Shown: positions 12,869-51,281 of the stretch, piece by piece
Layout of the letters: every line of letters begins with the position of its first letter
Position numbering within the stretch: the first letter of the stretch is position 1
Assembly (NCBI GenBank): GCA_964036295.1
Contig: OZ038463.1
Span: 2,418,001-2,482,000, forward strand
DNA from: Plumapathes pennacea
Taxonomy: Eukaryota > Cnidaria > Anthozoa > Antipatharia > Myriopathidae
Reading direction: 5' to 3'
DNA length: 64,000 bases
Notes under the pieces: generated by a model
What the model was told of the DNA's origin: nothing
The model's database searches: none
What the model saw: only the letters and a program-made list of their open reading frames with translations
Made by a program: the position numbers and the translations under genes

Positions 12869-13209
12869 TATAGAGGATATTACACGGCGGCCCGAAGATA
12901 TGAATTTTATTTTCGAGTGGTAAAAACAATATTTTACGAACGAGCGCTTCGCGAATGAGTAAATATTGTTTTTACCACGAGAAAACAAAATCCATATCTT
13001 CAAGCCGCCGTGTAATTTTCTTTTTATTATATTAGACACGAGCGTTTTACGAGAAATTGCACAAACAACCGTGCAAAAGCGGGAAATGATGCCAACGATA
13101 TCCTCACTAGTGAGGATATGGAAAATACGCCACTCGGGTCCCGGATGTAGTTTCGTATGGATTTTACGCACGGTATATTTTCCAGTAAAACACTCGTGTG
13201 TATATAATA
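12869..13209. mobile_element. Non-autonomous palindromic element (P1 insertion)
   Basis: These 340 bp are absent from the matching places in the other type-2 spacers (around 23992 and 56166). They contain palindrome P1 (12879-13016) and a perfect 22-bp palindrome at 13098-13119. There is no coding sequence. The exact ends are uncertain by a few bases because the flanks are AT-rich. Confidence 0.6.
12879..13016 (+). repeat. Palindrome P1 with opposed CGAG modules
   Basis: 138-bp imperfect palindrome; the outer arms read ATTACACGGCGG and its complement. CGAG at 12914-12917 faces CGAG at 12978-12981. Nearer the centre CGAA at 12937-12940 faces TGAG at 12956-12959, and the loop is GCGCTTCGCG-like. 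When the plus strand folds, each pair gives a tandem G.A/A.G step flanked by normal pairs. Confidence 0.8.
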
Positions 13210-13371
13210 AATTGAAGTATAGTACAGTATAGTATTTAATCGATAAAGATTATAAGTTTTTCCTTATTTGAAACACTGACTCCTATATATACTTTGTTAT
13301 TTCTGTTTTGTATTTTTCAGGTGAAATAAGTTGTTTATAGTTCTTCGATGACTCATAAGGCGCTGTTAACC

Positions 13372-13790
13372 TGTGCAATTTTCTCAGCATTGTCGTTGCG
13401 AGGCAAGTTGCTTAAGAATTGCACAGTGTAACAGGGATTGAGTCGTAATTTTTTTGCTGCGTGCAACGTTGCACGAAGCCGAACTCAGTTGTACTAATGT
13501 CGCAACGCGTTGCAGCAACTTGCAACGCCGTTGCACAGTGTAACACCTGTCCGGCTTTTTGCCTTGGCGCGAACAAGAGCGCATGTGCACTTCTTTTTAA
13601 TTATTCAAATTCCGCCGTGTTTACGTCTGGAATTTACAGCGCGCCAATCAAATATTTTCCCTAACTTTCCTCGACATAAATCGTTGCGAGTTGCTGAGAT
13701 CGTGTTGCACAGTGTAACACCCTACCTCCGCAATTTCAACGAAAATTTTTCAACCGTTGCGAGACAAGTTGCTGAAAAAATTGCACGGAT
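13372..13790. repeat. Inverted-repeat element rich in TTGCACAGTGTAAC
   Basis: The ends are inverted: GTGCAATTTTCTCAGCA near 13374 and TGCTGAAAAAATTGCAC near 13772. The word TTGCACAGTGTAAC recurs three times inside. The second copy of this element is at about 56562-56980. Frames across it are repeat-derived. Confidence 0.55.
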
Positions 13791-14280
13791 AGCTCTCAAA
13801 TTTGCATTCGCCCCTGTTCCCTCCAACCGATCTGGATTCATCTCATTGAAAAGGCTCGTTCACCAGTCTTTTATCTGTAGTTGGGTTCACATTTTGTTAG
13901 TTTCCGTCGTGTGTCCAAAGTCATTTTGAAACAAGAGAGTTTTAATTTGAGCTTCTCAGCCTTTGCAGTCTGAGTATGCAAGCATGTCTAAATAAGCTTG
14001 CTTTGCAAGTCTGTTGTCATCTAATGTTAGAACTTGGGTCCAGAAAGTAATAAGTTTTGCTTTAATTTCAGAGACAATAGGAAAACGGCCTAACTCGGCG
14101 CGACAAGCTTTGTTGATAGCTCTTTTGCTTACGCCCAGGATTTGTTTGCAGAACTGATTTCACATGTACCTGCTCAATTAGATTGCTCTCTGCATGAAAG
14201 CAGTACCGCTTTAATTTTCTATACCATTAGGTTTAAATGTCGATGATTGTTTTCGACATATTTTTGCCATTTCATATATA

Positions 14281-47290: not shown

Positions 47291-47999
47291 TAATGGTGGG
47301 GAACTCTTGATAAGACCTTACATTCTATATACCGAAATAATCAGTATTATAGGCACAATTTTGATAATGGTAATAGCCATTTTAACAAATATTAACAAAT
47401 ATTATGTTCAATTGAAATTTAAGGCTTATCAAAAGAGCAAAATCAGAAACTATTTACTCTTATATCTTGCCACATTTGGTCATATCAATAAATTAAATTA
47501 GATCACCGATTTTAGCTACTTGCCATTCATATTGTTGTTATTTATTTACCGAAAACAAGCAACTTATCTCATTTATTATAAACAACAACTGGATAAGTGG
47601 ACGTATAGTACAGTGTAGTATTTAATCGATAAAGGTTATAGGTTTTTCCTAATTTAAAAACACTCGTATATATATTTTTTCTATTTCTGTTACATATTTT
47701 TGAGGTGAATTAATTAATTTATAGTTGTTCAAAGACTTATTGCTCTTGGCGAAGCGACGATTTGCTTTCCAAATGTTGCCCGTTTTGCCACGCGCGAAAC
47801 ATTTGTTGCGGACACAAATTGTGTCCTGGACACAAAAAATGTTTCTAAAAAACCTCAGAAATATTTGTTGTGTCCGCGCGGAGCGCAACAATGTTGCCGT
47901 CCATTTTGCCACCCTGGAAACATCGAAGGACACAATGTTGCCGCCACAATGTGTCCTCGTTTTGCCAGGCCATTAGGATTGCAAATCGTGTCTTCATCA

Positions 48000-48132
48000 T
48001 ATTATTATTATTATTATTATTATTATTATTATTATTATTATTATTATTATTATTATTATTATTATTATTATTATTATTATTATTATTATTATTATTATTA
48101 TTATTATTATTATTATCATTATTATTATTATT
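48000..48132. repeat. TTA microsatellite, about 44 units
   Basis: The longest of three paralogous runs, with one interruption (ATC) near 48117. Confidence 0.95.
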
Positions 48133-50957
48133 TTCTTCTGGGTTACGAATCAGCACACGGTGATTGGTTCACATTGTCACGTGATATGCGATGACGAAGT
48201 CGATCGTGAACAACTTGAGATGTTGGCGATTGAATTGTATTTTAATACTTGGTGAAAATTTAGTTGCGTCGTATCCAAACTCAACACCATTTGTCTCTGT
48301 GGAACATGCAGGGATAAACTGGATTTTAGGGACCGATTTTGGCTTGCGTTCTTAAGTTCATCGGCGGAAGCTTGCCGTAAACAATGTTTGATGGATTCGA
48401 TTATTTGATAGATACCGCTACTGGAGTGCAAATAACTCTGTCGCCGCTAATTATTTAGTCCCGACGAAACTTTATGTGGCGACACAAAATACTTTGAGAA
48501 GATACCAAGCCGCAAACGGACACCACATACTATAGCTGTTTTGTAAATATTTTTCGCCGAAAACACAACCTTTTTATGGCGAAAAAATCCATCCTCGCGG
48601 CTCAAGTCTTCACAACACGGCTCTGAGTAAATTACCATCCATCACGCTGCGAGCCTGTGCCGTTAAAATGCTTCGGCTTATCGTAGAATGTTTCTTCCAT
48701 GCAATCATGTAGCCTTGTTTTGCAATGGTAATTGTATGCTAAAAACGAAAAATACACCGAAATAGTCCTGAACCTCGAGTTTGCTAGTCACAAATCGACT
48801 GAACATGCTGTGAACAAAACTGCAATAATATTGTAAACAAGAGCGGTTTGCCAGTGAGCACGTGGTGGGAGTTGGGTCGAGACCAGAATAACTTAAAATG
48901 GAAAGTAGGGACAAGAGCGAGACTCCCAAGAGAGACAGAAGTATGGTTTTCAGGAACCGGCGAGTTTTTAAAATTACAACAATCGCGTATGTTAATTTAA
49001 AGTCGTGTTATCACTCGTGTGTATTTCAACAATCCGGGCCCCAGATGCATTTGAATCACGACCGGTGAAGCTGTGTATGGGAGGTGGGAGCTGAGCCTAT
49101 TTAAATTTTTGCCGTGGAATATTTCCGACACGTAAATCACCTTTTGCTTGGCGCGCTCTTGCTCTGTCGGGAAACTCCCGAAAATGGTAACCTATTGAAA
49201 TCCGGTATGTATGACGTATAGTGTAAGCGAAAGACAGCAATCAGAAAAAAATCCTCACATTCAGGGAAAAACCAATGCATTATCAACCGTAAAACACAGA
49301 CGTTCCTTTCCAAGCAACGAAACTGGACGGCCGTACACAGACTAATTCAACAAAATCAAACTTGATTGCCGGGTGGGCGACAGAATGAGATCACTGGTAG
49401 AAAGTGCAACTAAATGAGTTCCGAGGCAAGAGACGATTAATATAAAATGTATTAGACCTTATGCGGCACTTGTCCATATTTGAAAATATGATCCTTTTTG
49501 TGCCCAAATGCTGTATAAATTTAAAAGATTTGAATTTGTTTTTCTTTTTTTTTGTTTGTAAGGTGTCTACAAATAAGTGGGACTCTGGGAAACCCGCCGA
49601 CAAAATGTTTCATGTTGAGGTTCATTCATGATTTCACGCCATATTTATATATACATCTTGATATTTATAGAGTATTTTTTACTGATACTACTCAGTTTCA
49701 CTGGTATCGCCAAACTTAACTAACACTCATTCTTGCTGATATGTTTGCACAAAAAAATGCTTTAATTTCGTACTGGGATGCATTTATGATTTCATTTTAC
49801 ATTATGTTTATGCACATTTCATGTTTTATACAAGCATTAAACGTCAACTTCGAAGGAAAAGAAGCCGTATGTTTTGATACTTAATTTGTGGCAGCAGTTT
49901 ACACGTTTTGCAGAACTACGTACAGTTTCCGGTGACACTAAAGGTTAATTCTGTGGGCAGATATAAAGTGAAATAGAGATATAGAAGTACGCTACTGTGG
50001 TTTACCATATTTTCGCTGTAGAGTCAGGTTTCTTTGAGAATTCGGTCTGTTGGTTGAATTGGCTTCTATGAACACGCAAGGAATCTCTTCTGGTTCTGAA
50101 GGTATGATTCGAAGTACTGTAGTTATAAAACTAGACATGCACACGTAGCTAGTCACGCCGTGACAATTTCTAATTTGCTAAGCTTACCTCATCAGTATTC
50201 CTTGAAGAACCCCAGCTCCGTCTGCCAATAAATGTCGGTGTATATATACACTTGAAGAGCACACTTAGCTTAAAAATAACCGATATCGCTTTCTGTGAAC
50301 CAGGATGAAAGGCAAGTTCTTAATCGGGAAGTGACGAATTAGTCATAAGAAGTTTCTAGGCGTTAGATCCTCCGAATACAAAGGCCACTAATACTCAAGC
50401 TCACCGTGTTGTGGCGAAGGAGAGACGGCGTAGAACAAAGACTCTACTATACGCGATGTGCGTGCTGTTGCTGCAACTGAAGCTCGCAAGAAGTTTGGGA
50501 CCGAACAATCCAGGCTGCGTCATAGGCATTGTTGCCTCTGTTTCAAAACAGGGTCTGGTGCGAAACCTTTCTTATGAAGTTAATTTTCATTTCCTTCAGA
50601 AAGGTTTCACGCTATGGCTCGGTTCGAACGGAGGCAACCGCATCTCGGAAATGGCCTATTTATTTTGATCGACTGAATTTTATTAATTCCAGGGCACACG
50701 GATTTTGAAACAAAAATATCCGGAAATGGGTCATTTGCCGTGACAGTCCCAGCATACACTCAGTTAAAAAAATCCAGACCAGTACACTGGAAGACTGACA
50801 ATTCGTTGATGAGAGAAAGGGGGGGGGGGGGGGGGAGGCAAGCTGTTTTTTTTACTGTGCACTAAACATACACGACTTCAAGAGGGAGTGCCTATGATTG
50901 CATGATCTTAAGACGAGGGGTGTATTTCTGACAGCATATTTGACTTGATCATAATAT

Positions 50958-51281
50958 TTAATAAATTTCCACTGGTTTGCCGTGGTGTGGACTCTTATTT
51001 ACCACGATTTACGTCATCACGCGGTCAAAATGTTGTGGACTCACGAGGCACTTCGCCGAGTGAGTCCACAACTAATTTTAGATAAGAGTCCACACCACGG
51101 CAAACCAGTGGAAATTTGTTTTTTACCAAAACATTTAGAAATATACAGGAAACTTTCGTTGTATTTCGCTGCAAAACGTGACATGCTGGCGTCAGCTTGC
51201 GTCAGCATCGTTGTCTGGACTCTTATTTACCACGGTAAATCGACCAATCAGAGAGCGAGAAACTAGTGTGTTGTGGTAAAA
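50958..51281. mobile_element. Non-autonomous palindromic element (P6 insertion)
   Basis: 324 bp absent from the sibling spacers, which read GATCATAATATAATCCC without a break. Contains palindrome P6 and a further direct copy of TGGACTCTTATTTACCACG near 51218. No coding sequence. Confidence 0.75.
50963..51117 (+). repeat. Palindrome P6 with an opposed CGAG module
   Basis: The outer arms (AAATTTCCACTGGTTTGCCG and complement) enclose an inner stem TTGTGGACTCAC / GTGAGTCCACAA. CGAG at 51044-51047 faces CGAG at 51057-51060 around an ACTTC loop. The left arm has about 24 extra unpaired bases. Confidence 0.75.

Follow-up and report, generated by a model that had tools for sequence, protein, structure and literature searches.

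Helitron2/Helentron transposons and the HINE (DINE-1-like) elements have been described as carrying asymmetric terminal inverted repeats (ATIRs), one marking the 5′ terminus and the other adjoining a 3′ hairpin on its inner side, as inserting mostly without target-site duplication into T-rich or T/A sequence, and as forming many short families (PMC3627910, PMC4067079 and PMC5148889). The 3′ hairpin of Helraiser acts as a terminator; exchange of its stem left ~90% of activity, and a changed loop plus loop-closing pair equalled deletion of the palindrome (PMC4778049). Here we analyzed long palindromes in a 64-kb stretch of the genome of the antipatharian Plumapathes pennacea (contig OZ038463.1, positions 2418001-2482000, hereafter the window; the genome comprises 290,015,204 bases in 24 contigs). 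Their arms are interrupted by CGAG facing CGAG, which gives tandem G.A on one strand and tandem T.C on the other. We consider it probable that these palindromes are the terminal hairpins of many short, apparently nonautonomous, rolling-circle-like transposons of the Helitron2/Helentron–HINE type, with the folded tip read as an end or stop signal.

An earlier note on this DNA had described five palindromes (P1, P2, P3, P5 and P6) with unrelated arms and opposed CGAG modules at symmetric positions. All five exist, and the window holds two more copies of the P2 family (window coordinates):

12872-13210, plus strand: P1 element, ~339 bp, with a hairpin (12868-13027) at its left end and an ATIR at its right end
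14612-15714, plus strand: P2 element, family E, ~1.1 kb, with a hairpin (14609-14809), an ATIR and the far end TTATTTTATAA
24964-25170, minus strand: P3 hairpin, with opposed CGAG modules and a CGCG/AAAA outer loop
25224-25333, minus strand: family C hairpin without its centre and with no tip module (compared by eye with family C loci), probably the P4 of the earlier note
32277-32648, plus strand: P5 element, ends approximate, with a hairpin (32277-32440) and an ATIR (32432-32456 with 32621-32645)
50958-51281, plus strand: P6 element, family A, 324 bp, with a hairpin (50960-51120) and the tip CGAGGCACTTCGCCGAG at 51044-51060
57979-59081, plus strand: family E copy, unit 1 of a head-to-tail dimer, hairpin 57974-58178
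59082-60185, plus strand: family E copy, unit 2 of the dimer, hairpin 59084-59274

The modules were as described: three in P2 (starts 14627, 14681 and 14701), which additionally has one CGCG/CAAG; two in P3 on the minus strand (25024 and 25044); and, in each of P1 and P5, opposed CGAG plus a CGAA/TGAG pair, with the P1 CGAG at 12914-12917 and its CGAA/TGAG double module at the tip. The arms are largely different, but “unrelated” went too far, as GTTGGGAGAAC-like arm segments are common to P2, P3 and the 25224 hairpin. The boundaries of P1 were set by comparison with 23950-24060 and 56120-56250, its exact ends being uncertain, and this comparison shows a 2-bp overlap at the junction. Two further inverted repeats in the window, the 27932-28036 pair and the 42759-42847 palindrome, contain no CGAG module.

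Mismatches were tallied in the eight ungapped palindromes of the window, which were found without reference to CGAG and three of which are P2-family copies; for P5 and P6, the tips are not part of the ungapped stretches and were read from predicted folds. The eight palindromes contain 24 single mismatches and 20 symmetric mismatch runs of at least two bases. Eleven of these runs are GA/GA inside C...G, including two in P3 on the minus strand, and the other nine are GC/AA (three times, each CGCG facing CAAG), CC/AA, CA/GA, TT/TT, CG/TT, TTTT/CGCG and TTAA/CCGC. By simple counting, a given two-base mismatch in a given context would be expected about once in 2,300. The earlier statement that the mismatch is always GA against AG thus captured a large excess but was overstated; accurately put, small internal loops interrupt the arms, and opposed CGAG is the commonest of them. 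The pattern CGAG-N(3-15)-CGAG occurs 22 times in the window, several of these being repeats of the TPR-CHAT array listed below, compared to 8.1 expected, and none of 100 shuffles reached 22.

The genome as a whole shows the same excess. The tip CACGAG-N(4-12)-CGAGTG occurs at up to 2,418 sites (1,212 + 1,206), an upper bound because some matches are not hairpins, versus 159 (79 + 80) for the backward-read control. Paired tips are rare: CACGAG...CTCGTG was found at 151 sites against 37 in the control, and CACTCG...CGAGTG at 45 against 47. These counts rule out chance or decay as the source of opposed CGAG, and the test of CGAG excess proposed in the earlier note, run in part on the window palindromes and the genome tip counts, did not refute its reading. 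Among the first 30 tip loci, 22 (L003-L024) are members of hairpin families and include broken copies, and two (L001 and L002) fall into neither the hairpin nor the satellite class. The remaining six (L025-L030) represent a single 10-base tandem repeat, CACGAGTGAC, in which the motif occurs, and are not family hairpins. Nine loci with rare tips comprise four family hairpins (L088, L089, L092 and L093), two broken ones (L091 and L094) and three nonhairpins (L037, L090 and L095).

The exact tip gave no match in a viral sequence collection, which may omit records near this genome. Parvovirus and poxvirus hairpin telomeres contain mismatched bubbles that matter and occur in two orientations. By description, the terminal, mismatched hairpins found here resemble these telomeres, but those end viral genomes, whereas the present hairpins lie on dispersed transposons. 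A literature search at abstract level, with RepBase and most subscription papers outside its scope, found no description of giant CGAG hairpins.

The hairpins sort into about eleven families, some of them related: A (P6), B, C, D, E (P2), F (L072), G (L069), H (L088 and L089) and the window singles P1, P3 and P5; L099 may be a further one. C, E and P3 have arm segments in common, and D and H have a common loop spacing. Majority consensus sequences of families A (17 copies) and B (4 copies) yield near-perfect arms of ~90 bp, in which the only differences are the GA/GA tip, G.T pairs (one in A, two in B) and a 2-nt indel in A. That the GA/GA tip stays unhealed in such arms, and that paired tips are rare genome-wide, bears out the proposal that the CGAG sites are kept as a feature. 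Two families were reached independently of CGAG. Specifically, a palindrome scan of 31 loci chosen for Helitron genes found four: a distant 18-base pair at L061, one family E copy at L081, and the new families at L069 and L072, which came from the Helitron Rep gene search. All three long palindromes (L069, L072 and L081) contain the module.

Tip types among the listed genome matches are GCGCTTCGC, GCCGC, CGCCGCG and CCGCTTCGG, with CCCCGCCGCGGGG and TCCGCAGGA rarer or independently met. The tip stems vary by family with pairing retained (GCG/CGC, CCG/CGG, CG/CG, CCCCG/CGGGG and TCC/GGA), and additional two-base loops lie at 19-23 or 32-34 bases in most multiloop families and at 25-26 in D and H (by eye). 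These features bear on an explanation that we hold to be distinctly improbable, in which a protein that binds double-stranded DNA requires both arms to carry (C)ACGAG in one orientation and the mismatch is a by-product of direct repeats. In its favor, the second module of F, G, D and P5 reads ACGAG(T) in the same direction in both arms. However, where the tip stem differs between families, its two sides have changed together, as expected of a hairpin, and the outer modules of C and E (CGCG versus CAAG), like the CC versus AA run of P1, keep the loop without CGAG in either arm.

To return to the transposon reading, the palindromes form one end of discrete elements. In all eight families with both ends known (A, B, C, D, E, F, P1 and P5), the far end repeats, in inverted orientation, the sequence that adjoins the hairpin on its inner side, forming an ATIR. 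For B, C, D, P1 and P5, 0 of 500 shuffles reached the observed score; for A, E and F, 0 of 1,000 did so with corrected boundaries, compared to 189, 79 and 114 of 500 with wrong ones. Read opposite to the CGAG strand, the order is 5′ ATIR, body, inverted copy of the 5′ repeat, hairpin and a few terminal bases, which matches the Helitron2/HINE layout published in PMC3627910 and PMC4067079. Unlike mite HINE, for which PMC4067079 gives 3′ palindromes of 5-10 bp, the arms here span ~60-100 bp across families and have conserved opposed CGAG loops. Similar to Helraiser, there is an end hairpin with an exchangeable stem and a tip that matters, here seen as conservation; the 19-bp palindrome, 5′-TC and CTAG-3′ ends and A/T target reported for Helraiser and canonical Helitrons are not found here (PMC4778049). 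The motif GATTGG follows the 5′ ATIR in families A-E, and a 5′-terminal hairpin composed of the 5′ ATIR and downstream bases was seen by eye in A and E but not in B and C.

Insertion sites are consistent with this layout. The 324-bp P6 element is missing at the paralogous window stretches 7698/7699 and 41858/41859 and has no target-site duplication. Locus L072 contains a 1.1-kb insertion within a Helentron gene, and base-by-base reading by eye against L071 and L068 shows no duplication; in L081, a family E copy interrupts a satellite without clear duplication. In the window, the family E dimer at 57979-60185 joins its units without spacer (TTATTTTATAA/TTAAGCAATAT), an arrangement that can fit rolling-circle elements. 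Canonical Helitron1 was rejected, since 5′-TC, CTRR-3′ and A/T insertion were not found, the ends being TTTTACC.../TTATAA... and TTAA. Miniature inverted-repeat transposable elements of the PIF/Harbinger or piggyBac type carry a 3-bp TWA or 4-bp TTAA target-site duplication. No such duplication is present at P6 or L072, and this identity was rejected as well, despite a Harbinger-like transposase at 904-1860.

We next considered which strand is folded. In 41 of 43 rows from families A-E, CGAG keeps one strand with respect to the element body, and two rows (L012 and L022) are flipped; by inspection, F, G, H, P1, P3 and P5 agree. Opposed CGAG is thus a kept, polar feature of a transposon end. The earlier note had held that only the CGAG strand folds well, and this was not supported: both strands fold strongly. 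In predicted folds, the CGAG strand has the lower energy in 8 of 10 hairpins, with C and P1 as exceptions, and its advantage is 1 to 7 kcal/mol out of 38-107 with DNA parameters and 2 to 22 kcal/mol out of 63-162 with RNA parameters, where it is sizeable in D, G and P5. Mismatches on the CGAG strand of the 10 hairpins, counted with the modules and some flanking columns, are A.G 63 versus C.T 1, A.C 21 versus G.T 12, A.A 10 versus T.T 19, and G.G 1. G.A greatly exceeds C.T but A.C exceeds G.T, and the mismatch types therefore leave the folded strand unsettled; the preponderance of A.C over G.T points against folding of the CGAG strand only.

The same numbers bear on an RNA-level explanation, in which the elements are transcribed and the CGAG-strand RNA is processed or bound, as a small RNA precursor or in RNA-based mobility. 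In its favor, 8 of the 10 hairpins are predicted to be more stable as CGAG-strand RNA, with an advantage of up to 22 kcal/mol, and the loops recur at intervals of about two or three turns of the helix (by eye). We nevertheless regard it as highly improbable: the A.C excess (21 versus 12) is contrary to what RNA selection predicts, the lack of duplication, the ATIRs and the spacer-free dimer favor DNA transposition, and there is no Rfam match within the 64-kb window. The earlier proposal of a strand-specific hairpin, whether in a transcript or a single-stranded DNA intermediate, had missed the transposon-end context; its DNA alternative, as a transposition intermediate, is the more tangible of the two, because the palindromes are one end of transposon-like elements. 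A narrower version, that tandem sheared G.A pairs at near-helical intervals within 200-base terminal hairpins constitute a strand-specific code and that the CGAG strand, the complement of the expected transferred strand, folds and is read, seems to us unlikely, although worth keeping in view.

Healed tips, in which the module itself is paired, were also counted. A family-type tip is present in 15 of the 50 CACGAG...CTCGTG sites listed (arm-1 type in both arms; 151 total) and in 1 of the 45 CACTCG...CGAGTG sites (arm-2 type; C2:18815758), and we estimate that healed tips make up a few percent of the total. Four loci were read. The tip alone is healed in L101 (family D) and the tip in L098 (B); in L100 (E), the tip and second module are healed and the outer two are not; and L099, which is C-like without matching the C consensus, is healed over apparently three modules. 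All four kept the arm-1 type, as the pattern from which they were picked demands. Tip healing looks one-way and may reflect fold-back copying on the CGAG strand, a constrained arm 1, or subfamilies that arose in few events; under the narrower strand-code version it would be a trace of the CGAG strand folding back during replication. In L098 and, judged by its flanks, probably in L099, the loop has an inverted orientation with respect to the body. Together with the flipped tips of L012 and L022, such inversions are a sign of cruciform or template-switch events.

Healing also bears on the possibility that the motif is a relic of escape from mismatch repair. Tandem G.A within C...G is a stable noncanonical pair. 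If hairpin intermediates homogenised the arms, tandem sheared G.A could escape repair, and in families A and B the consensus arms are strikingly uniform. We judge this improbable, however, as the module lies near the tip in family after family rather than at random, healed tips do arise (the 15 of 50 and the four loci above), and single modules are healed in L009, L011, L020, L022, L050 and L081. Conversion can therefore heal modules, yet healed tips stay rare.

We thus return to the end-signal model as the one we favor. The element's protein, presumably a Rep-helicase, would recognize the folded single-stranded tip, internal loop included, as an end or stop signal; the stem sequence would be largely free to change, and opposed CGAG would be the selected part. 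This proposal follows from the differing arms, the paired changes in the tip stems and the constancy of opposed CGAG, by analogy to the division between stem and loop in Helraiser. The genome contains at least 150 matches to PF14214 (Helitron_like_N). One Helentron, at 2588-8092 of L081, is 5,505 bp long and lies in a 787-bp satellite without duplication; its minus strand contains reading frames of 1,238 and 233 aa. The family E copy of L081 was considered as part of this adjacent Helentron and rejected, as both are separate insertions in the satellite. CGAG...CGAG in the 5′ hairpin of Helentron copy L086 was set aside, because it is a single copy and an apparent deletion form of the L081 Helentron.

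Several observations weigh against the end-signal model. No autonomous partner with the ends of families A-F was found among the delimited Helentrons (L081; L096/L097): the L081 element begins with a GTGCTGCC hairpin and terminates in CTAG, the L096/L097 family terminates in CTAGTATTTTT or a near variant, and small hairpins accompany these ends. No CGAG hairpin was seen at L084 or L085 within the stretches examined, and L085 contains three long inverted repeats without the module (arms 63, 40 and 33). The Helitron2 5′-terminal hairpin was not seen by eye in B and C. At the insertion sites, the L072 flank alignments overlap by 15 bases, which we attribute to a chance resemblance between the element end and the target; the L072 target is C/T rather than T/A, the family A target being mostly T/A; and the L081 junction lies within a T run. 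In the Helitron2 reading, moreover, the transferred strand bears T.C and not G.A. Modules away from the tip are healed both ways, to the arm-1 type in L011, L020, L050 and L081 and to the arm-2 type in L009 and L022 (in a table that enters most sites on each strand separately and in which probes A and B cross-match), and the strand argument is therefore weakened. Finally, the polarity rows are partly dependent, with L033 and L034 overlapping and L046-L048 being near-identical copies, and most loci were picked by the CGAG tip itself.

Other features were observed beside these. Near the hairpin-less end, ~30-40 bases from it, families A-E carry CCAATCA / TGATTGG in otherwise different sequence (by eye; for example, 51200-51281 and 15660-15714), possibly a promoter box or a common protein site. 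In A, B, C, E and F, part of the hairpin arm's outer half recurs near the same end (by eye), and both element ends therefore have arm sequence in common. The L085 inverted repeats are on the reverse strand at 5834-6097 and 9067-9271, downstream of the Helitron gene. The transposase at window position 904-1860 (plus strand) is of the DDE_Tnp_4 type and lies near a Myb/SANT protein (3106-3750, minus strand), a pair that looks like a PIF/Harbinger element. TPR-CHAT genes form a tandem array in the window, with mobile elements between and beside the genes:

9241-12240, 20076-23378, 34582-36834, 43484-46806 and 52539-55535, minus strand: TPR-CHAT array, 120-bp TPR repeat units, some genes in pieces

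How Helitron-like elements recognize their 3′ end and stop there is poorly understood. This one genome offers about eleven families in which the stems are largely different and a single tip is retained; copies number up to ~2,400, healed and flipped variants among them, and hence form a natural mutational series that could reveal whether the end signal is folded single-stranded DNA and on which strand. More generally, when a long palindrome is systematically noncomplementary, this can be a retained feature rather than decay.

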